A stretch of DNA of 48,450 nt from NCBI GenBank assembly GCA_024687185.1, contig JAILEX010000053.1:1-48450 (forward strand), read 5' to 3'. The position numbers and the translations under genes are program-made. Below, one piece after another: positions 16,146 through 44,732 of this stretch. The notes under the pieces are model-generated. The model was given only the letters and a program-made list of their open reading frames with translations. It ran no database searches and was not told the origin of the DNA. Each line of letters begins with the position of its first letter. The stretch's first letter is position 1. The stretch comes from Bacilli bacterium. Its GTDB lineage: Bacteria > Bacillota_I > Bacilli_A > RFN20 > CAG-826.

Positions 16146-17429
16146 TTAGGAGATGGGCAAGGTCCCAAATAGGACGAATTTGTCGTCTACGACCCTGCAG
16201 TCGAAATAGCCGCCATACTTCTTTAAAGTGGTCTTCATCGACTGTACGCCGAAGCCGTGATAATGCTTATTGGATTTGCGGGTGATGGGCATGCCCGAGA
16301 CGAAAACGGGCTTTTCCTTAAAGGAATTCTCAAGTTTGATCTGCACCATTCCCTTCGATCTAGAAATCGTGAAGACGATGTTGCGCCTTTCGGGCTCATC
16401 GATTAATAGTACCGCCTCGATGGCGTTATCGAGCGCGTTAGTCAATAAGGTATATATGTCGACCGCGGACATGCGGTTGAGCAATTGGCCATCCACCATG
16501 CAGGAGAAATTGATGTCGTTATTGAGGCAGAAAAGCTTTTTCTCCGAGACCACGATGTCGACGGTGTCGTTGCCGGTTTGGACGAGGGAATCGTATTTTA
16601 GTAGCGACTCCTCGATCGTATGGACTTCGTTTAGGAGCTCGCCGTTGGCGTGTTTCTTAAGATAGGCGAGAACCTTCTTCAAATCGTGGGACTTTTGGTT
16701 GATTAGGGCGATGGATTCCTGGGTGACGCGGTATTCCTTTTCCTTTTCGATTAGCAACCTTTGCAAAATCTCCTTCTCGGTGACGCGGACGTTATCGCGG
16801 ATGATGAGCATCAAAGCGCCGATGATGAAAACGGAGATGATGAACTGGTTGAAGTGGATCTGCGGGGTCGACCTTGTGCCGAAGGTCAAATAGGAGGAAT
16901 AGACCATCAGGATGCCAAGGGAGGTGATAATGGCGGTGATGATCGGGAAGGCGTTCATCCTGCCCGAGGTAACGAACCACTTCTGGCGCAAAACGCCAAA
17001 ATAGAGCAAACACCAAAGGGCGATGAGGATTCCGAAATAGATTAGGATCGACCAAGGATTCCCGTACAGGGAGAACTGCATGATGAAGAAGAAGTTAAGC
17101 GCGTTGACGGCGTTTTGGAAGGAATAGGCGCCCGTGCCGACATAAAGGATCCTTCTGATGTCGATTTGGTAACAGAAGGCGATTCCCCCTAACCCCGCCA
17201 CGAATTCGATGATGAAGATGAAGGAGAACCAACCGACCTTCAACACCGTTAGCAAATCGATACCCGCGAGGTGAAAGAAGAAATTTATGAATAATAGGGG
17301 AACGAAAATTAGCGTCCTCCAATAGAAGTGGTCGCGACGAGGCATTTTCGTGGCGAACAAAAACAAACCCGCGATGAGGCGGAGCTCAAAGCTATTCAAA
17401 AACCATAAAAAAGGCTGTTCAAAGATCAT
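16146..17429 (-). CDS. Sensor histidine kinase, GHKL / AgrC-LytS type
   Basis: A 427-residue protein with six or so N-terminal membrane segments (to about residue 215), a coiled linker and a GHKL ATPase domain. Motifs seen are the KSHDLKK phospho-acceptor region (His near 246), the N box NALDNAIEAV (about 329-338) and the GFGVQSM glycine loop (about 390). This is the architecture of AgrC-like kinases that sense peptides or cell-envelope signals. Its start overlaps the stop of the response regulator by four bases (ATGA), so the two are translationally coupled. The GH3 gene downstream has its own promoter region, so whether the kinase governs it is an inference from position. Confidence 0.88.
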   Translation of the reverse strand: MIFEQPFLWFLNSFELRLIAGLFLFATKMPRRDHFYWRTLIFVPLLFINFFFHLAGIDLLTVLKVGWFSFIFIIEFVAGLGGIAFCYQIDIRRILYVGTGAYSFQNAVNALNFFFIMQFSLYGNPWSILIYFGILIALWCLLYFGVLRQKWFVTSGRMNAFPIITAIITSLGILMVYSSYLTFGTRSTPQIHFNQFIISVFIIGALMLIIRDNVRVTEKEILQRLLIEKEKEYRVTQESIALINQKSHDLKKVLAYLKKHANGELLNEVHTIEESLLKYDSLVQTGNDTVDIVVSEKKLFCLNNDINFSCMVDGQLLNRMSAVDIYTLLTNALDNAIEAVLLIDEPERRNIVFTISRSKGMVQIKLENSFKEKPVFVSGMPITRKSNKHYHGFGVQSMKTTLKKYGGYFDCRVVDDKFVLFGTLPIS

Positions 17430-18169
17430 TCTTTTTTACCAAAGGAAGCGAAATAGGCTTCTAGCACCCCTTTCTTTTTATTGCGGGACAAAGGAAGTGT
17501 GGTGGACCCGACGACGACCTGGTCCTTAAGGATTTGGTTTATGTGGTTGACGTTGATTAGATAGGATGGCGAGCATTTCACGAAGTCCGGGCTATCGATT
17601 TCCTTGGCCACCGCCGAAAGCTGTTTCCAGGATTCATAGCAAGTGAGGTTATTCTCATCGTCGCCTTCTTTGAAGGTGCCATAGTAATAGCAGATGTGGT
17701 TGATGATGCAGATATAGTAGATATCCTTTACCTTGAGTTTGTAATAGACGCCTTTCGATTTGACCGAAACATAGCGTTCATCGAAACTTAAATAGCGTTT
17801 GACAATGGACCCAAAGCGGAATTTGAAGCCCTCGTAATTGATCGGTTTGAGGATATAGTCGCTTGCGGCCACCTGATATCCCTCGATCGCATAACGGCTG
17901 AGGTTTGTGACGAAGACGATGGTGGCGTCTTTATCTTGGGCACGGACGTTTTTCGCGGCCTCCATGCCATTGAGTTCGCTGTCGTTTAGCTCGATATCGA
18001 AGAATATGATGTCATATTGCTTTTGGAAGTGATCCAAAAAAAGGAGCGAGCTTTGGTAAACGTCTACGTTGACGTCTATTTCCTCCGCCCCGCAGTACTT
18101 ATTGATAAAAGTACTGAGGAGTTTTGCCTCCTTCTCGACGTCTTCAATGATGGCAATGGATATCTTCAT
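17426..18169 (-). CDS. LytTR-family response regulator (AgrA/LytR-like)
   Basis: The frame is open to 18301, but the receiver domain begins at MKISIAIIEDV, so I take the ATG at 18169; the ATG at 18178 is possible. The receiver phospho-acceptor is Asp57 in FFDIELN. The C-terminal half is a LytTR DNA-binding domain (YVSVKSKGVYYKLKVKDIYYI ... KCSPSYLINVNHI). It partners with the kinase encoded next. LytTR proteins bind pairs of direct repeats; a candidate pair (TGACGA twice, 20 bases apart) lies at 18442-18467 in the region upstream. No strong ribosome binding site is visible at either start. Confidence 0.87.
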   Translation of the reverse strand: MKISIAIIEDVEKEAKLLSTFINKYCGAEEIDVNVDVYQSSLLFLDHFQKQYDIIFFDIELNDSELNGMEAAKNVRAQDKDATIVFVTNLSRYAIEGYQVAASDYILKPINYEGFKFRFGSIVKRYLSFDERYVSVKSKGVYYKLKVKDIYYICIINHICYYYGTFKEGDDENNLTCYESWKQLSAVAKEIDSPDFVKCSPSYLINVNHINQILKDQVVVGSTTLPLSRNKKKGVLEAYFASFGKKE

Positions 18170-18589
18170 GTACGGCATACGCACTATACGTGCGAGAAAA
18201 AATGATAAGTAAAGTCTTCGCGTTAGATTGCATTTTTTTTCGCGTAACTTGTCATTTTGGGGTCCATCTAGAAAATAGTGATAAAAATGAATATCTTCCA
18301 TAAATATCGCATTTAGATAACAAAATATATGGATTGGGGTAGCAACGAATAAAACACGCTTATAAAATTTTCAAAAATCCGTTGTTTGAGTACAGGTTTT
18401 CGATTACCCAATAAGGATAACCATTTTAACCGATTTCAAAATGACGAAAACATGATTATTTTGACGATTTTTAATAAATAGTAACAATGTTTCATTATAT
18501 TGATATATGTTCAAATAATACAGATTTTGTCACATTATTACTGATATTTTCGATTGAATTCAATTGACGTTTTTGTAGAATACAAACGG
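18170..18589. promoter_or_regulatory. AT-rich intergenic region between the LytTR system and the c-di-GMP riboswitch
   Basis: About 420 bases with clearly higher AT content than the flanks and no gene that I can support. It must hold the promoters of both divergent units. Elements seen: a short inverted repeat CGCAC-TATAC-GTGCG at 18179-18193 next to the response regulator start; direct repeats of TGACGA at 18442 and 18462 (start-to-start 20 bases, the style of a LytTR site); and the palindrome ATTGAATTCAAT near 18553. No promoter could be assigned with confidence. Confidence 0.45.
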
Positions 18590-18591
18590 AA

Positions 18592-18665
18592 AAATGGCAA
18601 AACCAGGGTGACCTGGCGACGCAAAGCTAAAGGGTCTCCTGTTTCGAAGATAGCCAGTTGCCAAA
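18592..18665 (+). promoter_or_regulatory. Cyclic di-GMP-I (GEMM-I) riboswitch
   Basis: The order of conserved elements matches the GEMM-I aptamer: GGCAAAACC, a 3-bp hairpin AGG-GTGA-CCT with a GNRA loop, GG, then the hallmark GACGCAAAGC, AAGGGTCT, and closing strands GATAGCC and GTTGCC. P1 pairs GGCAA (18596-18600) with TTGCC (18658-18662); GCTA pairs with TAGC around the second arm. Downstream, GGCAA at 18678-18682 can also pair with the same TTGCC, giving a mutually exclusive fold that would occlude AAGG just upstream of the start region. In that model ligand binding would free the start region and turn expression on; the direction is inference. It precedes the TasA-like gene at 18696. Confidence 0.85.
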
Positions 18666-18695
18666 AGAAAAAAACAAGGCAATTAAGCGTAATCC

Positions 18696-19477
18696 ATGGC
18701 ATCCAAACAGCAATTAAAAATCATCGCCGTTACCGCAATATGCATCTTTTCGCTTTTTACTTGCTTTTCTGGCGTTCTTGCGTGGTTTGAGGCGAGTAGG
18801 GCGCTAAATAACGGGGCCACTCAATGGAAGTTGCGTCCTTAACCGGGAGCTTTAGAACCCTTACCGTTCATCCTTGGGATGAGGAAAACAGCACCGACTC
18901 CACTTATGTCTTCGAATCCTCGGCTGTCGCCACTTATACCTACAACGAAAATTCCGACTCGGTCACTTTAACAAAAGCAACTGGAGTCACCACTTTCGGT
19001 TTAGAAAGATATAGCTTGCTTGAGCCTTCCCAGCCCGTACTTTATCTTTTCCAGTTCGAGGCGGACACATTGGATAGTGAAATTTCTATCGAGGCAACCT
19101 CCTCCACCGAAACATTCTTAGGTTCGGTTGAAAATGGCCTAGAAGCCGAAGATAACCCTCTTAGTTCAGTGGTTAAGTTTTCTTCGATCTCCTTTGGAAG
19201 CACACCATCCTATTCGATTACGAAAACCGATTTGTCCGAGGAAGACCATTTCGTGGAAATGAGTCAGGACGGCGGCACTTTTAATAGCTATAACAAAGAG
19301 AAGACTTTCTATTTCGGAACCGCGGATTCTGAGATGCGTTATGTCGGCATCGTCTTTGATTACTACGCCGAAGCGATGGAGTACATCTACAGTATGAACC
19401 TAGGCAACGACGTCTTAATGACCCTCAATATCGATGAAGACGTCGGCTTTAAATTCGATTGGACGGTGACGCTTTGA
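18696..19477 (+). pseudogene. TasA/camelysin-like secreted surface protein, interrupted by a frameshift near 18812-18842
   Basis: The ATG at 18696 begins MASKQQLKIIAVTAIC, a signal peptide ending FSGVLAWFEASRALNNGATQ, then runs into TAA at 18840. The protein continues one frame over from MEVASLTGSFRTLTV (18824) to the TGA at 19475-19477. The combined sequence, an AWF motif just after the hydrophobic core followed by an all-beta domain, is typical of SipW-dependent TasA/camelysin-type fibre proteins. A single missing base, for example one A in CTCAATGG at about 18821-18828, would restore the frame. It could be a true mutation, a sequencing or assembly error, or two coupled ORFs; the last is least likely because the second part has no export signal. 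It is directly under the c-di-GMP riboswitch. Confidence 0.72.
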
Positions 19478-20019
19478 TGAGAAAAGGATTAAGGCGTGCC
19501 TCAATAATAGCGGTTTTATCACTTATATGTGGGCTTTTAACCGTGGCCGCCGCAAGCGGGGTAACCGTAAAAAGCGGGACGACCACCTTAACGCCAACAC
19601 CGACTGGAGAAGCGTCAAGTTCCACCACTGCCACAACAACCGTTTATACCTACAACAGTTCGACCGAGGCGCTTACTACCGAAGTGACGACGGTCGTGGA
19701 TGGCGGTAACCCCGTGGTCACGGAAACGTCTACTAGCATTTCTTCTAGCGATTACGAAGCCATAAAACTACCGGTCCTTACCCCGTCTAGCAACGAGGTA
19801 TACTGCGTTATCAATTACACTGCCGCGGCCTCGGCGAATCTATCGATCTCCTATACCCTCACCTATAATTCGACGACGGAAAATTACACCTATGCCTTTA
19901 CTATCACCGCCGAAAGCGAAGTAACGATCTACCTAGCCTCACTTAATGAGAACTATCTCGTCAGCATGAACGGCACTTCCGTTTCCGAGGGTGGAAGCTA
20001 TACCTATCGACCAAGTTAA
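19477..20019 (+). CDS. Secreted Ser/Thr-rich beta protein, partner of the TasA-like gene
   Basis: I take the ATG at 19477, which overlaps the upstream TGA by one base (TGATG), so translation is coupled; the longer frame from 19459 would extend the N-terminus by six residues. The 180-residue product has a positively charged start (MRKGLRRAS), a hydrophobic signal segment ending near VAAASG, and then a threonine- and serine-rich region of alternating residues (TTTLTPTPTGEASSSTTATT) and beta-strand-like sequence to the end. No enzyme motif is visible. It resembles the small accessory proteins that accompany TasA-like fibres, but I cannot assign a family. A terminator follows. Confidence 0.65.
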   Translation: MRKGLRRASIIAVLSLICGLLTVAAASGVTVKSGTTTLTPTPTGEASSSTTATTTVYTYNSSTEALTTEVTTVVDGGNPVVTETSTSISSSDYEAIKLPVLTPSSNEVYCVINYTAAASANLSISYTLTYNSTTENYTYAFTITAESEVTIYLASLNENYLVSMNGTSVSEGGSYTYRPS

Positions 20020-31110: not shown

Positions 31111-31965
31111 ATGAAAACAAATTTATTGAGGCATTTCGCCTTGGCCGCGATGACCGTGGCAACGCTGGCATCTTGCGGAAACGGTGCAACCGACGCAAAC
31201 GTCATCCGAATCGGACTCGAATGCGCCTATATTCCCTTTAACTGGGTGGCGGAAGGGGAAAACGAATTCACCCTCCCCATCAAAAACCATGCGGGCAGCT
31301 TTGCCGATGGCTATGACATCCAAATCGCCAAGAGGATTTCGGAGAAGCTCAACAAGAAAGTCGAGATCGTCCAGACCAAATGGGAATCGCTCATCACCGA
31401 TCTTCAGATGAATTCCATCGATTTGATCATCGCCGGCATGACCGAGACCGAGGAAAGGGCGAGGCAAATCGCCTTTACCAGCGAATATTATCGTTCCGAA
31501 CTCGTTTTGGTTACCTCGTCTACCGTGGCCGCAAAATACAACACGTCCTTAACCGCGAACGAATTCAAGACCTTGGTGACTGGACAAAACATCGTCTCCC
31601 AGGTATCGACCGTCACCAATGACGTCATCGATACCTTCGTCTCTAACTATGGCGCGGTCCATGTCACCCCCGTGGCGACGTTTGCCTTAGCTGCCCAAGA
31701 CGTCGTTAACGGCTCGGCTTTCGCCATGACCGCCGAACTACCGGTCGCCTCTAGTATCGTATCCAAGCTCCCTTCCCTAGGAATCGTTCGCTTTGCCCAA
31801 GAGGTTTTAGGCGAAGCCCAAAGCGAATTAGGTGTTTCTATCGGTGTCAGGAAATCCGACACCACTCTTCTATCCGACGTCAACTCCGTCCTCTCTGGCA
31901 TCACCAAAAATGAGCGCGAAGCCGTCATGGCAGCGGCCGTGAGTAGGTCCGGAGGCGCAGAATGA
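31111..31965 (+). CDS. Lysine-type amino acid ABC transporter, substrate-binding lipoprotein
   Basis: 284 residues. The signal peptide ends in lipobox TLASC (Cys near 22), then a bacterial SBP family 3 domain: VIRIGLECAYIPFNW, YDIQIAKRISEKL, IDLIIAGMTETEERA. The riboswitch directly upstream makes lysine the best guess for its ligand. AGGAGG lies ten bases before the ATG. The stop overlaps the permease ATG by four bases. Confidence 0.92.
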   Translation: MKTNLLRHFALAAMTVATLASCGNGATDANVIRIGLECAYIPFNWVAEGENEFTLPIKNHAGSFADGYDIQIAKRISEKLNKKVEIVQTKWESLITDLQMNSIDLIIAGMTETEERARQIAFTSEYYRSELVLVTSSTVAAKYNTSLTANEFKTLVTGQNIVSQVSTVTNDVIDTFVSNYGAVHVTPVATFALAAQDVVNGSAFAMTAELPVASSIVSKLPSLGIVRFAQEVLGEAQSELGVSIGVRKSDTTLLSDVNSVLSGITKNEREAVMAAAVSRSGGAE

Positions 31966-32729
31966 ACCTGGGAGAGGACCTATCCCGTTTACTCTCCACC
32001 TATTGGAGTCAATTCCTACTCGGTTTGGCAGGTACCCTCGTCCTTTCGATCGTGGGTACCGGCGTCGGTTTGTTCCTAGGCGTTTTCTTGGCCCTAGGGA
32101 AAAGATGGAAGGTCAAAGACGGCGACCCTATCCCCCTAAGGGTAGGGAAATACGCGGTCAGGGGTCTTTGTGTCGGCTATAGCGCCGTAATTCGTGGCAC
32201 CCCCATGATGGTGCAGGCCCTTTTGTTCAAATATGGCTGTATGGCCATGGGGTTAAACTGGAATAACGTTTTGCCTGGGATCGACGTCTTCAATGGCTGG
32301 ATGATTGCGGGTTTGATCGTCATCACATTAAATACCACCGCCTATATGGGAGAAGTGGTAAGCAGTGGATTAAACGGTGTCGATAGGGGACAGGAAGAAG
32401 GGGCGAGGTCGCTAGGATTATCTTCTTCGCAGGCCCTATGGTCCGTCATTTTGCCCCAGGCGTTAAGAAACGCGATTCCCACGATCGGCAATGAATGGAT
32501 CGTAAACATCAAGGACTCCTCCGTTTTAAACGTCATCGGCGTCGCCGAGCTTTATTTCGCCGCCTATAACGCGGCCAACGATTCCTATGCCTTCATGGCG
32601 AGCTATCTCATCATCGCGGCCATCTATTTGATCTTGACCTTGGTCAGCAACCTCGTTTTGAAGCTCATCGGCATCAAACTCGAGGGCAAGGCCATATTCG
32701 GGTTTAGGAAAAGGAGGGTTGCCGTATGA
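31962..32729 (+). CDS. Lysine-type amino acid ABC transporter, permease
   Basis: 255 residues, about five membrane segments, HisM/GlnP type. The EAA loop that contacts the ATPase is seen in GQEEGARSLGLSSSQALWSV (EAA-x3-G form), and RGTPMMVQALLFK is typical of polar amino acid permeases. It overlaps both neighbours by four bases (ATGA), so the three subunits are made in step. Confidence 0.93.
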   Translation: MNLGEDLSRLLSTYWSQFLLGLAGTLVLSIVGTGVGLFLGVFLALGKRWKVKDGDPIPLRVGKYAVRGLCVGYSAVIRGTPMMVQALLFKYGCMAMGLNWNNVLPGIDVFNGWMIAGLIVITLNTTAYMGEVVSSGLNGVDRGQEEGARSLGLSSSQALWSVILPQALRNAIPTIGNEWIVNIKDSSVLNVIGVAELYFAAYNAANDSYAFMASYLIIAAIYLILTLVSNLVLKLIGIKLEGKAIFGFRKRRVAV

Positions 32730-33454
32730 GTATCCTCGAAGTCAAAAACCTACGTAAATCTTTCGATGGGGAAATCGTATTGGACGATGTCTCCTTTACT
32801 TTGGAAAAGGGGGAATGCCTTGTAATCCTAGGCAATTCGGGCTCTGGAAAGTCTACTTGCCTGCGCTGCATCAACCTTTTGGAACACCCGGACAGCGGGG
32901 AGATCCTATTTAACGATGAGAACATCCTTTCTAGGGGCGTGAACGAAAATACTGTCCGCTCCAAGATCAACATGGTCTTCCAATCCTTCAATCTGTTCGC
33001 GAATATGTCGGTTTTATCTAACTGCATGCTCGCGCAAAGGAAGGTATTGAAAAGAAGCAAATCCGAAGCTAGGGAAATCGCCTTGGCCAACTTAAGGAAA
33101 GTGGGTCTACTAGATAAGGCAGATGCCTTTCCCTCTTCCTTATCTGGAGGTCAAAAGCAAAGGGTCGCGATCGCGCGTTCCCTCTGCATGAACCCCGAGA
33201 TCCTTTTATTCGACGAACCCACCAGCGCCCTCGACCCAATGATGGTCGCCGAGGTATGCAACGTCATGGCGAACCTTAGGAAAGAAGGGGTCACCATGAT
33301 TTTGGTAACCCACCAAATCGACTTCGCCAAGAAAATCGCAAGCAAAACGATGTTTCTATATTCGGGCAAAGTCGACTGTTTGGATGAGACCTCAAAGGTC
33401 TTCTCTTCCCCTACTGCGAAGTTTGCCGAGTTCCTGGCGGCGGAAACCAAATAG
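32726..33454 (+). CDS. Lysine-type amino acid ABC transporter, ATPase
   Basis: 242 residues with Walker A GNSGSGKST, Q-loop VFQSFNLF, signature LSGGQKQR, Walker B ILLFDEPTSALD and H-loop LVTHQ. This is the GlnQ/HisP group. It completes a three-gene importer under one lysine riboswitch. The 190-base gap to the next (convergent) gene at 33649 has a weak hairpin near 33525 (ACCCT/AGGGGT) but no clear U-tract. Confidence 0.94.
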   Translation: MSILEVKNLRKSFDGEIVLDDVSFTLEKGECLVILGNSGSGKSTCLRCINLLEHPDSGEILFNDENILSRGVNENTVRSKINMVFQSFNLFANMSVLSNCMLAQRKVLKRSKSEAREIALANLRKVGLLDKADAFPSSLSGGQKQRVAIARSLCMNPEILLFDEPTSALDPMMVAEVCNVMANLRKEGVTMILVTHQIDFAKKIASKTMFLYSGKVDCLDETSKVFSSPTAKFAEFLAAETK

Positions 33455-34758: not shown

Positions 34759-36120
34759 CTATTTTCTAGCCTTAAGCTCTTTCTTACGGGCATACATTAG
34801 CGCATCGGCCCTTTCGAAGACCTCATGCAGGTTTTTGTCCTTGCCCTTTTCGAAGTTAGCCATGCCGATTGAAATCGATTCCTTCTTCTGAAGGTGGTTT
34901 TCCTCGATTAGATGGTTGACCTCTACTAAGATCTCATCCCGATGGTCGTAGTCTTCCCCTTCCAGGATGACCACGAATTCGTCTCCCCCAATCCTATAGA
35001 CTGGGGAATGCTTATAGGCTTTGCAGATGATCGTGCAGGCGTCTTTGATATATCTATCGCCTACTTTGTGGCCATAGGTGTCATTTACTTCCTTTAATCC
35101 ATTGACGTCGCATACAAGTAGGCTAAAGGGGAGTACGGAGCCATCCTCGATATCGTCGTTGATCTTGGTTTCGATCTCGGAGAAGGCGTGCTTGCTCTTA
35201 ACCCCCGTCAAAGGATCGCGGTAGGCGATTTCCTTGACTTCATCAAGAGACCTCGCGTAATTTTCCTCGCGCTTAACCTGGTCGTCGATGTTGCTGATGC
35301 CGACGACGACGTGGTATTGGTCCTCTAGCATCATCTTGGTGATCTTGATTCTGCTATAGTAGGGCCTCCCTTCCACCATTATGCGGATGGTAAGGGCGAA
35401 GCTTCTGTCTTTAGAAAGGACGTTTAATACGTTTTCTTTGTTGCAGGCGGCGAAATAGATAGGCAAATCGTCTGGATGGACGTGCTTCATCAGTCCCTCG
35501 GGACTACTAAAGAACATCGTTCCCTCCTCAGGGATTCCCAATGTTTTGAATTTGTCCGTGGAGGAATATTGCTTATAAACGTCGTTTTTGGTGTCGACAT
35601 AGAAGAGGGCGACATAGTCGGATGCGAGGGCTTCGGCGATGCCGGCGAAGGTAAGATGGTTCTTTTTGGCGTTTTCGTATGCCTCGATACGTTTCATGTG
35701 GGCATCGATGTTTTTGAATCCCACGACGATATGGTCGTTGTCGTTGATCATCTTCGTGACCTTCATCTCGACATATAGGGGAGCGTCTTTGACTATGATC
35801 CTAAAGATGAGACCGAAGCTTTTGTCGACGGAGAGTACCTTGCCCACGTTTTCTGGGGTAAAGGCGGTCCTTACCATATCAACATCCTCGACGTAGACGA
35901 GGTTCATGAGGCTATTGCTAGTCAAAGAAAAGAAATCGTCCCCAACGGCTGGGAAGTTGAGGGAGCGATAGAATTCGCTTGAGGAATATTCGATGTAACT
36001 CCCTGTTTTGCAATTGACGTAGAAACTGCTGACAAAGTCAGATGCCAGAGCTTGTGCAATCGCGGCTTGGGACAAGCGAAAGCTTTTCTTCAAAGCCTCC
36101 GCTTCTTTCTCTTTTCTCAT
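34759..36120 (-). CDS. PAS-like diguanylate cyclase (GGDEF)
   Basis: 453 residues, no membrane segment. Two PAS-like repeats of about 135 residues (1-140 and 145-275) start with similar sequences (ALASDFVSSFYVN and ALASDYVALFYVD), then a GGDEF domain with RDPLTGVKSK, DVNGLKEVNDTYGHKVGD and YRIGGDEFVVIL (about 375-386). Active-site residues are complete, so it should make c-di-GMP from two GTP. No RxxD inhibitory site is seen just before the motif. A TATAAT box (minus strand, 36152-36147) and an AGAGG ribosome binding site lie upstream. The product could feed the riboswitch at 18592. Confidence 0.9.
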   Translation of the reverse strand: MRKEKEAEALKKSFRLSQAAIAQALASDFVSSFYVNCKTGSYIEYSSSEFYRSLNFPAVGDDFFSLTSNSLMNLVYVEDVDMVRTAFTPENVGKVLSVDKSFGLIFRIIVKDAPLYVEMKVTKMINDNDHIVVGFKNIDAHMKRIEAYENAKKNHLTFAGIAEALASDYVALFYVDTKNDVYKQYSSTDKFKTLGIPEEGTMFFSSPEGLMKHVHPDDLPIYFAACNKENVLNVLSKDRSFALTIRIMVEGRPYYSRIKITKMMLEDQYHVVVGISNIDDQVKREENYARSLDEVKEIAYRDPLTGVKSKHAFSEIETKINDDIEDGSVLPFSLLVCDVNGLKEVNDTYGHKVGDRYIKDACTIICKAYKHSPVYRIGGDEFVVILEGEDYDHRDEILVEVNHLIEENHLQKKESISIGMANFEKGKDKNLHEVFERADALMYARKKELKARK

Positions 36121-36713: not shown

Positions 36714-38981
36714 TTATACGCCCCAATTGACGGGTCGGTTATTGGGGTTCCAGGAGGAAGACCAGCCGGAGGGTTTTGAGGTGGCTTCGCAGTTTATCGT
36801 CAAGGAGGTGCAGTTGTAGAAGGCGTGGGTCCAAATGGTGTCCACGTTATAGGGAATATAGACGCTAGTCAACCCAGTGCAACCCGCAAAGCTATAATCC
36901 CCCAATATGACCATGGAGTCGGGCAGGGTTATCTCCTCGATGTTGGTTTTCCCATAGAAGGCATTGGTGGAGACCATGGCAACGGGAAGGCTATTTACGG
37001 TAGAACGTATCGTTGGGTGGTCATTATATGCCCTCACCACGGTATAGGCATCCGTATAACCATCGGTTAAAGCGCAATATAAGACGCCTTCATAACCGAT
37101 GGCGCTAAACCCTTTGCCTCCTATGACGACCGGTTTATGTTCGCTATTCCATTTCGTTCCCCAATCCGGATCATAGGCGCCTTCGGTCATGATGATGAGG
37201 TTTTCGTGGGAGCCGACAAAGATATCGTCGCCCAAAGAAGTGATTTGATAGCCGATTTTTGCCCACTGCAACTTTGAGCAAGAGGAGAAGGCGCCGGTTC
37301 CAATCGTCATGGCGCAGTCGCTGCTGGATAGGATCTTCACACCCTCTAAGGAAGTGCAGCCCCTAAAGGCATAGTTACCGACGGTTTCAAGGTATTTTGG
37401 GAAGACGATGGTATCGATGCCCGAATACCCGTCGAATGCGTAGGGACCGATTTCGGTGACGGTATACTCTTCGCCGTCCAATTCGATGGCGTCAGGGATG
37501 ACCAGGGTCGTTCCAACCTTGGATTCGTCTTCGCCAAGGACCTTTGCCTTTTTGCCGCTAAGCTTAACGAAGGATAGATAGGGATAGTTATAGGGATCGA
37601 GGGAGTTATAGCGATATTTGGCATAAACGGTGATGCTCCCTTTTTCCTTTGCATCGCTTCCTTTGATGGTCGTTATTTCGCTAGTAAGTTCTGAATCTGA
37701 GCACCAAGAAACGAAAACATATCCGTCTTTTGCAGCGTTTTCTAGCAATACTTCCTCATTATATAAAATAGAGGATGGGTTATTCTCGCTATTGGCCCCG
37801 CCATTAAGAACGTAGTTGACGGGGTAGGAAACGGCTTCGTATTTGGCGACGAAGACCATGTTGTCGACTATGGAAACGGAGACGAGGACGGTACCGTCTT
37901 CGTCTATGATGTGCTTATTGTTATAGGTCCATCCCTTGAAGATATGGTTTTCCTTTGTCACGTCGAAGAAGAATGCGTCATCTAGAGAAGTAACTTCGAT
38001 TGGCCCAGAATAGGAAGGGGATGTCCCTCCGTCTAAGTTAAAGTCGATGGTATAGGTGATGGGGGCCTCGCTTGAGGACGATTCCTCGCTTGATGAGGAT
38101 TCCTCATTACTAGATTCCTCCTCGCTAGATGAAACCGAGGATTCCTCGATGCTAGATTCCTCTATACTGCTTTCTTCGCTTGTGATTTCGCTCGATGATT
38201 CTTCGCTTGTAGATTCTAAACTAGACTCCTCGCTACCAGATTCTTGAATTGAAGACTCAGACGAAGCGGCCTCAATAGACGATTCCGCTAAACTTGATTC
38301 ACTAGAGGAGGCTTCTTCGATACTAGATTCGCTATTCTGGCTTTCGGTAGAAGACGCCTCAATTGAGGAAGAAGAGGAAGAATCCCAAGGGGAGTTATTC
38401 TTGTTGTTGCTATTAAATAGACTGATTCCAATCCCAACCGCGCTTCCAATTGAGATTAGACCGGCGAGGATGAGCACGCCCGTGATGACCCAAACAGATG
38501 CTTTGCCGGTGTTTTTCACCGTGGGAATCGGGGCAACGGCGATAGGTTCGATGCAAAAATAGAGTTCATCGATTTTGATGCCATAGAAATAGACGAGGGA
38601 AAGAAACTCCTCTTGGTTAGGGAAAGACACGCCTTGCTCAAAACGGATTATCGCCCCAACGGGGATAGAGAGCTTTTCCGATAGTTCTGCCTGGGTGAGG
38701 CCTTTCGACTTCCTTAATTTCCTTAGGTTGGCCCCGAATTCCTTCGCGTCAAAGGATTTCTCCTCGCACAACGAGCTTTCCTTTTTGACCTCCCCTAACA
38801 ATAGGCCCTCAAGATCGATTTGATAAAGTGATGCCAGCTTTCCCCAGACGGGAAGGCCAGGGCTGCCCTTCCCATTTTCCCATAAGGAAATCGTTTGGGT
38901 CGAATACCCAAGGGATTCGGCGACCTTGGTTTGCGATAAACCGATTTCCGCTCTGCGTTGGGAAAGAAAATCCTTATCCAT
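36714..38981 (-). CDS. Membrane-spanning protein with two XRE HTH domains inside and B-repeats plus BspA-type leucine-rich repeats outside
   Basis: 755 residues. Two XRE DNA-binding domains come first: about 1-62 (LSQTKVAESLGYSTQTISLWENG) and about 82-140 (LTQAELSEKLSIPVGAIIRFEQG). One membrane segment follows (about 165-190, WVITGVLILAGLISIGSAVG), then an acidic serine-rich linker (about 200-310), two InlB-like B-repeats (about 315-455) and BspA/LRR_5 leucine-rich repeats (about 460-755, for example YAFDGYSGIDTIVFPKYLETV). This predicts DNA-binding domains in the cytoplasm and a ligand- or host-binding surface part. XRE-plus-membrane architectures exist (RodZ-like, anti-sigma-like), but this set of domains is unusual. 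Signal transfer could be by oligomerisation or proteolysis (inference). The start is MDKDFLSQRRA at 38981. Confidence 0.87.
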   Translation of the reverse strand: MDKDFLSQRRAEIGLSQTKVAESLGYSTQTISLWENGKGSPGLPVWGKLASLYQIDLEGLLLGEVKKESSLCEEKSFDAKEFGANLRKLRKSKGLTQAELSEKLSIPVGAIIRFEQGVSFPNQEEFLSLVYFYGIKIDELYFCIEPIAVAPIPTVKNTGKASVWVITGVLILAGLISIGSAVGIGISLFNSNNKNNSPWDSSSSSSIEASSTESQNSESSIEEASSSESSLAESSIEAASSESSIQESGSEESSLESTSEESSSEITSEESSIEESSIEESSVSSSEEESSNEESSSSEESSSSEAPITYTIDFNLDGGTSPSYSGPIEVTSLDDAFFFDVTKENHIFKGWTYNNKHIIDEDGTVLVSVSIVDNMVFVAKYEAVSYPVNYVLNGGANSENNPSSILYNEEVLLENAAKDGYVFVSWCSDSELTSEITTIKGSDAKEKGSITVYAKYRYNSLDPYNYPYLSFVKLSGKKAKVLGEDESKVGTTLVIPDAIELDGEEYTVTEIGPYAFDGYSGIDTIVFPKYLETVGNYAFRGCTSLEGVKILSSSDCAMTIGTGAFSSCSKLQWAKIGYQITSLGDDIFVGSHENLIIMTEGAYDPDWGTKWNSEHKPVVIGGKGFSAIGYEGVLYCALTDGYTDAYTVVRAYNDHPTIRSTVNSLPVAMVSTNAFYGKTNIEEITLPDSMVILGDYSFAGCTGLTSVYIPYNVDTIWTHAFYNCTSLTINCEATSKPSGWSSSWNPNNRPVNWGV

Positions 38982-42839: not shown

Positions 42840-44732
42840 CTATTTCTTTTCGACAAAGAATTCGACCAACTCTTCTTCTGGCATTGGATGACAATAATAG
42901 AAGCCTTGGATGAAGTCGACTCCCATCTTGATGACCTTGTCCGCAAGCTCTTTGCTTTCCACACCCTCGAGTAGGATTTCCTTGCCGCCGGCATGGAGCA
43001 TGTCGAATAGGTTTTGGAAGGTCGCGTCCTGCTTATCGCCGATTAGGATGTCGGTTAGGGACTTATCGAATTTGATGATTGTGGCGGGTAGGTTGATGAT
43101 GCGGGCGATATTGGAATAGCCCGTGCCGAAGTCGTCGATCGCGATTCTAAAACCGACTTTGTGGAGAGAGACGATGTTCTCTATCGCGACGGGGTTATCC
43201 ATGACCTCGACGCTTTCGGTGATCTCGAAGACGATCTTGCTTGGTGAGACGTCATATTGCGAGGCAAGGAAAAGGACACGGGTGATTAACGTTGGGTCAA
43301 GAAGCTGAAGCGAGGAGAGGTTGATTTCGAGGAAGTCGAGGTTGTATTTGAGGCTATTGGAGATAAAGGCGAAGCTCTTCTCCATCACGATGTCGCCTAT
43401 TTTGGCGATTTTGCCTCGCTTTTCCGCGTAGGGGACCATAAGTCCTGGGAAGATCATGCCGAAGGTGCCATTGGCCAATCTAAGCAAGGCTTCCGCGCTA
43501 GTGAAACGCTTTCTTCTGGTGTCATAGACGGGTTGGTAATAGACGTCGAAGCTTTTCTCTGCGATGGCTTTCTCCAAGACGTTATCCAAAGCGAATAGGA
43601 GGTTGCCCTTCTCGCTGCGATAGGGGGTGATATCGAGATAGAGTTCGTTGGTCAGGTCGGAGAAGGTCGTTGAGAAGGCGACCAGGGATTCGATGTCGCT
43701 AAAGTCCTCTGGGCAATCCACGAGGGTAAGCCTAGAGATGAAATGGAAGTTGACCGTATCGGCCTTAATAAGCGAATTGAAACGCTCGTTTAATAGTTCC
43801 CTAAGGTCATTGTCCTTTTCCTTATCGTCATGGACGATTGCGAAGGTGCCTTGGTCTAGATAGTAGAGTATGCCGCTTTTATCGACCCTTCTTATGGTCT
43901 CGTTGACCCTATTTAGGAACGACCTAAGGAAGGTGGTGACCTGCCTATGGCCATACATGTTATAAAGCGAGGTGTGGTTGAGGGTGTGGACGAAGACGAT
44001 GCCGAATTCCTCTTTTAGCCCAAGCTTCCTATCCATTAGGGAGATAAAGGAATTGAAGCTAGGGAGCTGGGTCCTATAGTCGATGAAGTTCTCGGGGTTT
44101 TCGATGAAGACCGAAAGGATGAGAAGGGAAAGGGCGGTCGCAAGCATCTCAACCAAGATAAAGCCTAGGAAGAACTGGACTACGCTGGCCGCGATTTGAA
44201 GCAATAGGGCCAAGATGACCGTGATGAACTTCGACATATCGAAGAGCTTGCGGTTGAACAAGATGATCATGACCGCGCTAAAGGCATAGGCGTAGGCGAT
44301 GAAATATAGGATCAACGCAAGCGGCTCGCGGTGATAGGCGCCGACTTCGTAATAGAAGATCCAGTGGTTCCAGATGTTGGCGATTAGCAAAACCAACATG
44401 ACTAGGCCTGGAACGGTCAAAAGGGAGATGAGACCCTTTTTCCTTTTTAATGGGTAATAGATCTTGGCGATGATAAGGGAATAGAAGAAAAGCATCAAAG
44501 GGATCATGACCCTGAAGAGCATATAGAAGGTGTTGGCGGCGAATAATCCGTCCACGGGCATTCAGTCCACCGAGGCAAAAATGTCGGCGACACTTGATAA
44601 AAGGGTGATGAAAAGGAGCGCAAGATAAAGCTTGTTGCTTGTGTTTTTATACTGTTTTCTAACTATGACCGAGGCAATCAAAAACAGCAAAAGCGCGATG
44701 GCTGCGTAGTCGAAGTAGAGAATGAATCCCAT
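42840..44732 (-). pseudogene. Membrane EAL-domain c-di-GMP phosphodiesterase with degenerate GGDEF, split by an in-frame TGA at 44562-44564
   Basis: The ATG at 44732, with AAGGA seven bases upstream, starts MGFILYFDYAAIALLLF and 56 residues ending IFASVD, followed by TGA. The next codon in the same frame is ATG (44561), from which a 573-residue frame continues with membrane segments, a degenerate GGDEF domain (GGDEF replaced by DQGTF) and an EAL domain with intact SAEALLRL, FEITESVEV, AIDDFGTGYSN and QGFYY motifs. Joined, the two parts make one normal protein of about 630 residues. A Trp codon (TGG) changed to TGA would explain it. The shorter protein alone would lack its first two membrane segments; restart at the ATG is possible, since it is in frame. 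Confidence 0.75.

Follow-up and report, generated by a model that had tools for sequence, protein, structure and literature searches.

The window, that is, the whole stretch of 48,450 nucleotides that was analysed (contig JAILEX010000053.1, from a Bacilli bacterium), harbours a c-di-GMP-I riboswitch aptamer in front of an interrupted gene for a predicted exported protein, together with genes for a diguanylate cyclase and a phosphodiesterase. The features discussed are the following:

16146 to 17429, minus strand: GHKL histidine kinase (Pfam), divergent from the switch gene
17426 to 18169, minus strand: LytTR response regulator (Pfam), divergent from the switch gene
18554 to 18581, plus strand: promoter-like TTGAAT-16-TAGAAT (consensus scan); the -10 element TAGAAT ends 4 nt 5' of the aptamer
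18586 to 18665, plus strand: c-di-GMP-I (GEMM-I) riboswitch aptamer, RF01051; the G at 18596 is the equivalent of Vc2 G20 (cmscan alignment)
18656 to 18662, plus strand: AGTTGCC, 3' strand of the aptamer, common to the ligand fold and the alternative hairpin (sequence)
18678 to 18684, plus strand: GGCAATT, alternative partner strand, without the 3' U-tract of relatives (sequence pairing)
18696 to 18842, plus strand: frame-0 5' part of the interrupted exported-protein gene, with basic tail, hydrophobic segment and AWF motif (translation; match to profile A1)
18824 to 19477, plus strand: -1 frame segment of 217 aa, mature beta-sandwich domain of the interrupted AWF gene (ORF; profile A1; AlphaFold)
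19477 to 20019, plus strand: second gene, 180 aa, Ser/Thr-rich, signal-peptide-like N-terminus; intact, no family match
34759 to 36120, minus strand: GGDEF diguanylate cyclase, motif intact, with Asp and not the Hypr Ser at the guanine-contacting position
42840 to 44561, minus strand: EAL phosphodiesterase with a weak N-terminal GGDEF remnant

The search of the whole window with all Rfam families revealed the presence of two curated RNAs. One is the c-di-GMP-I aptamer, with 59.4 bits and an E-value of 3.4e-9 (gathering cut-off, 35 bits). An earlier note, made from the sequence alone, had recognised a GEMM-I core 5' of an exported-protein gene and proposed a run of the Rfam covariance model; this run gave a significant match and the reading is borne out. 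The other is a lysine riboswitch (RF00168, 30863-31040, plus strand, 63.8 bits) upstream of plus strand genes at 31111-33454. The cyclase and phosphodiesterase genes that the note had placed in the same window were likewise found. The window also encodes, at 36717-38981 on the minus strand, a protein with HTH_3 domains, a Listeria-Bacteroides repeat and BspA-type leucine-rich repeats. The genes for the GHKL kinase and the LytTR regulator (16146-18169, minus strand) are separated from the switch gene by an AT-rich region of about 400 bp, and may represent a second input.

Downstream of the aptamer, the AWF gene (MASKQQ...AWFEASRALNNGATQ...) starts with the ATG at 18696, which begins MASKQQLKIIAVTAICIFSLFTCFSGVLAWFEASRALNNGATQ, and runs in frame 0 to the stop TAA at 18840-18842. 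The rest of the gene is open only in the -1 frame, at 18824-19477. The family profile A1 matches the frame-0 piece at 18693-18854 (E 9.8e-13) and, separately, the -1 frame piece at 18806-19474. Since this homologue-derived profile matches both pieces separately and in order, they are read as one gene, broken near 18822-18826. In-frame homologues are present in the same genome (G000, the paralogue on contig C109) and in the genomes G148, G151, G155, and G158. The break may be either a sequencing or assembly error or a real loss. Programmed frameshifting is not favoured, as no slippery heptamer was noticed and every inspected homologue is in frame. The second gene overlaps the stop of the first (TGATG at 19475-19479), so its earlier description as a coupled Ser/Thr-rich partner is fair.

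An exported protein of the AWF type does follow the switch, as had been claimed, although not in one open frame. No Pfam family matched the window AWF protein, and Pfam gave no match to TasA or camelysin for it or for the intact C109 paralogue. The SipW-type signal model TIGR04088 scored 14.4 bits for the C109 paralogue and 13.8 bits for one AWF protein of the FLG operon described below, against a cut-off of 19. The AlphaFold model of the 217 aa mature domain (pLDDT 85.5) is a jelly-roll/discoidin-like sandwich. Its best structural match has Z 6.0, and TasA is not in the list of matches, an absence that is not evidence for a different fold. With the gene frameshifted, a jelly-roll-like model, TasA unlisted and no Pfam family, the proposed TasA or camelysin likeness of the window protein is not supported. 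The search for related loci with this protein across the genome contigs gave no match, the window's own genome having perhaps been excluded.

The promoter-like element of the window leader comes from a consensus scan in which the number of matches was no higher than in shuffled sequences. Across the family, however, 73 of the 89 switches show a hexamer resembling TATAAT (5/6 or better) at most 20 nt from the aptamer, versus 117 of the 623 control windows, and a predicted promoter adjoins the aptamer in this switch family. On the 3' side, AGTTGCC pairs with GGCAATT in a 7 bp alternative helix. The expression platform previously drawn through the GGCAA at 18678 stands as far as this pairing is concerned, but the helix has no U-tract and no intrinsic terminator was found 3' of the aptamer in the window leader. 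The leader folds at -36.6 kcal/mol when free and at -22.5 kcal/mol when constrained to form the aptamer. Under this constraint the unpaired probability of the start codon goes from 0.25 to 0.32 for the U and from 0.10 to 0.19 for the G, so that the aptamer fold is predicted to expose the start codon only slightly more. Because the helix is devoid of a U-tract and the exposure of the start codon is nearly unchanged, the mode of control at the window is uncertain. The leader being without the terminator U-tract of its relatives, the window copy may be in decay or under translational control.

The source genome (1.62 Mb, 88% complete) possesses six RF01051 matches, which correspond to five distinct switches, one of them being shared by the ends of contigs C28 and C109. 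Besides the one in the window, three stand before intact AWF genes (one on C109 and two on C80) and one before a HAMP-GGDEF cyclase gene. Within the family, the switch is present in 66 of 146 genomes, and the 92 switches with a usable downstream gene were read. Fifty-four precede AWF-type genes, thirty-two FLG genes, five genes for GGDEF proteins (diguanylate cyclases) and one another gene. The FLG class is defined by a basic cytoplasmic tail, a transmembrane segment, the motif AFLGRxxGxFTVxL with its donor-strand-like FTVxL, and later N-G and WLEG motifs, and the AWF products downstream of switches vary in size between about 230 and more than 1,300 aa. The predicted switches are thus placed almost exclusively before AWF or FLG genes (86 out of 92). 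The reverse test, performed in the genus, found a switch just upstream of 10 of the 11 full-length homologues of the window protein and of all 17 strong FLG matches; lower-scoring FLG paralogues were mostly without one. Outside the family but within the class, the downstream frames of 28 switches were scanned, and 7 of these switches lie before proteins matching the FLG profile (E 4e-15 to 4e-23). Several of these loci then carry an AWF/AWL protein, and the order switch-FLG-AWF recurs in the families f10, f15, f17, and f22. No alignment was obtained between the AWF and FLG profiles; therefore, no single common AWF/FLG family is claimed. A permissive AWF rule was kept out of the enrichment because of its numerous false positives, and the motif 'YF..G.G..DP' proved too stringent to help in searching the second genes. 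Taken together, the window switch is probably one member of a c-di-GMP regulon that is conserved in uncultured Bacilli and comprises exported AWF-type proteins and a TasA-like fibre operon.

Some individual loci deserve mention. The sole family switch before neither AWF, FLG nor GGDEF genes (L011, G013:C58:5780-5869, plus strand) precedes an ORF that resembles, by eye, a small mobile-element protein. At L050 (G121:C51, 2288-3541, minus strand), the C-terminal part of the switch-linked AWF frame matches BREX BrxB (PF08747, 4.9e-31), an odd fusion or an assembly chimera. In other families of the class, c-di-GMP-I switches at L225, L227, and L243 stand before genes identified by eye as MreB/actin-like (MNVGVDLGTSSLLVYVEGRGTIFNEPS...).

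The leaders of the relatives provide the expression platform that the window leader lacks. Most of them consist of the aptamer ending in ...GCCAGTTGCC, a short spacer, GGCAACTGGC, TTTTT and the ATG. A terminator formed by a helix with the aptamer 3' strand and a U-run passed the shuffle test in 41 of 54 AWF, 22 of 32 FLG and 0 of 5 GGDEF leaders, which gives 63 of 86 AWF/FLG switches with a terminator that re-uses this strand. The re-used stem shows matched base changes (T-A in 34 and C-G in 13 cases at one position), in helices that were picked for pairing, which biases the paired percentages upwards. As terminator and aptamer have one strand in common, the ligand should block termination, and we infer that the family switches are mostly ON by ligand. 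The ON direction given in the earlier note is supported mainly in this way, through the terminators of relatives competing for the aptamer 3' strand. The functional class-I switches of C. difficile are uniformly OFF, while the class-I switch Bc2 of B. thuringiensis, located before an adhesin, is ON (PMC6366702); with a terminator built from the aptamer's own 3' strand, an OFF switch as in C. difficile is very improbable here. Some FLG leaders (e.g. L012, L019, L028, and L047) show a long nested structure from aptamer to start codon. In leaders of this type, a stem like GGAATAAA/TTTATTCC could hide the terminator U-run, and a further hairpin precedes the ATG.

Against this family pattern, the window copy may be a dead or dying paralogue, in which the aptamer persists while the first gene is disrupted and its terminator is gone; a fibre protein would then no longer be regulated here. 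This is a serious possibility, to which we give somewhat less than even weight. It would account for the frameshift near 18822-18826, at a site where the homologues of C109, G148, G151, G155, and G158 are in frame, and for the anti-P1 helix without a U-tract after it. Nevertheless, the aptamer retains its conserved core, the 217 codons past the break are still open and recognised by the family profile, the overlapping second gene has remained intact, and a one-base error of the metagenome assembly is possible. Given the lost U-tract and the frameshifted first gene, the window copy would be a paralogue that was damaged recently or one whose control works by masking the 5' end of its coding region, and the working copy would be the intact C109 paralogue.

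The ligand of these switches is likely c-di-GMP. Sixteen GGDEF matches were found in the source genome, fourteen of them over the cut-off, and the recognisable domains carry the usual Asp, not the Hypr Ser, at the position which we take to separate diguanylate cyclases from Hypr enzymes. The ligand-contacting position 20 (Vc2 G20) is G in the window switch (18596) and in 5 of 5 switches of GGDEF genes. However, it is A in about half of the family switches (24 of 54 AWF and 23 of 32 FLG switches, with two apparent T at this position being misread G), a change that can alter ligand preference. As G20A class-I aptamers can bind cGAMP (PMC6274999), many switches of the regulon might sense 3',3'-cGAMP or be promiscuous. 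This is improbable in view of the G20 of the window switch, the Asp-type GGDEF enzymes of the source genome, and the EAL enzymes within the FLG operon. Position 20 also varies between A and G among paralogous switches of one genome, which could reflect graded sensitivity or different ligands.

The switches before FLG genes head an operon that is syntenic across genera, in the order switch, FLG, one to three AWF/AWY proteins, AAA+, DUF2357-type protein, SipW-like peptidase, EAL enzyme and nucleosidase. The AAA+ protein (about 510 aa) has a hydrophobic N-terminal part and a McrB-like AAA+ domain, the protein after it has 480-715 aa (DUF2357 in one), and the nucleosidase is PNP/MTA-nucleosidase-like. 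The EAL enzyme (E below 1e-62) was present in 8 of the 8 FLG operons checked, and some operons add a protein of about 1000 aa with a weaker EAL match. Among 60 SipW-family (TIGR02228) matches, 23 follow a same-strand switch at a distance of less than 10 kb, where about 1% would be expected. The peptidase of the relatives' operon is assigned by similarity to NF046067/TIGR02228, two operon proteins scanned scoring below the equivalog cut-offs. The source genome encodes the operon core (AWY, AWY, AAA+ and the next gene) on contig C46 of 6.9 kb. No SipW or FLG matches were found in this genome, which is uninformative given that C46 is truncated on either side. McrBC-type parts usually act as restriction enzymes. 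It would be unusual for the membrane McrB-like AAA+ ATPase, found with the DUF2357-type protein inside the fibre-like operons L201, L199, L196, and L206, to take part in export or assembly.

Weak structural similarity to TasA was found for the FLG subunit. Its AlphaFold model (pLDDT 85) has the TasA fibre 8aur as first structural match (Z 7.1, 3.3 A, 132 residues, 14% identity), under the mark of Z 8 at which structural matches are reliable. The list also includes the archaeal bundling pili 7ueg, the Sulfolobus filament 7pnb and FimA-type subunits, and in the model a predicted N-terminal strand FTVxL directly follows the transmembrane segment. The resemblance of FLG to the TasA fibre is thus suggestive. 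The search of PDB sequences with the AWF and FLG profiles revealed no meaningful relative, and no sequence relation to solved TasA. The link between c-di-GMP and matrix proposed earlier finds support in the relatives, through the SipW-like peptidase and an FLG model that best matches the TasA fibre, and its TasA part is not supported for the window gene; the TasA link is better for the switch-headed system than for the window's own protein. AWF and FLG could instead be exported surface or adhesin proteins that share only a common beta sandwich with TasA-type fibres. This we regard as rather unlikely: a structural Z of at most 7.1, the absent sequence match to TasA and the wide size span of the AWF products (about 230 to over 1,300 aa) are compatible with it, but it does not readily explain why the FLG list combines TasA with two archaeal donor-strand pili and FimA, why the operon encodes a SipW-like peptidase, or why the predicted FTVxL strand follows the transmembrane segment. 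We give about even weight to the full reading of the FLG operon as a c-di-GMP-controlled surface-fibre system of uncultured Bacilli, with TasA-like donor-strand subunits, a SipW-like peptidase and a membrane-anchored McrB-like AAA+ ATPase with a DUF2357-type partner, which would be switched ON by its riboswitch and limited by its own EAL phosphodiesterase.

The wiring is read from the gene order and the leaders, and we infer binding, direction, export and assembly as follows. At low ligand, the aptamer 3' strand, its downstream complement and the U-tract would form the terminator and transcription would stop. When c-di-GMP rises, the aptamer would capture this strand and allow read-through of AWF and FLG genes. 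The FLG subunits, and probably the AWF proteins too, would be exported, trimmed by the operon's SipW-like peptidase, and joined at the surface through donor strands. The EAL enzyme of the FLG operon would lower c-di-GMP as a negative feedback, and the switch-driven diguanylate cyclase of some genomes would reinforce the signal as a positive one. With switches controlling fibre-like genes almost exclusively, plus a cyclase, and a phosphodiesterase in the main operon, this feedback circuit is testable. If true, it would connect a TasA-type matrix system directly with c-di-GMP in uncultured bacteria that have small genomes and a surface biology about which very little has been learned. Being so exclusively associated, RF01051 can also serve as a finder for unknown surface-protein families.

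Both the RNA class and the control of surface fibres by c-di-GMP switches have been described before, the latter for C. difficile pilA1 and B. thuringiensis cap (PMC6366702). Among the papers covered by the literature search, there was no report of c-di-GMP riboswitches with TasA/SipW-like, camelysin or AWF genes. The class-wide regulon and the FLG operon appear new, the window copy being an apparently damaged member.

In Clostridioides difficile, c-di-GMP turns on pilA1 fibres by a class-II switch and sortase-substrate adhesins via riboswitches (PMC6366702). That system likewise has riboswitch-run, c-di-GMP-induced surface fibres or adhesins, but differs in its class-II aptamers and type IV pili. 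Bacillus thuringiensis Bc2 is a class-I c-di-GMP switch on the collagen adhesin gene cap, ON by transcription read-through (PMC6366702; PMC4933901). It resembles the switches described here in aptamer class, surface-protein target and the read-through mode that we propose; unlike its single adhesin, the present switches form a genome-wide set on AWF/FLG genes with cyclase and phosphodiesterase feedback. BsaA-SipW of Clostridium perfringens, a temperature-regulated pellicle matrix system (PMC7395162), is similarly a SipW-linked matrix protein system in a Firmicute, but no c-di-GMP switch is described in the accessible portion of that report. Similar to Bacillus subtilis tapA-sipW-tasA, the FLG operon combines a subunit that best matches the TasA fibre with a SipW-like peptidase, and FLG has a hydrophobic signal segment followed by a donor-strand-like stretch. 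However, tasA is controlled by SinR in B. subtilis (PMC9674648) and the FLG operon by a predicted c-di-GMP riboswitch. Beyond the parts of tapA-sipW-tasA, to which it does not belong at the sequence level, the FLG operon also encodes a membrane McrB-like AAA+ protein, a DUF2357-type protein, an EAL enzyme and a nucleosidase.
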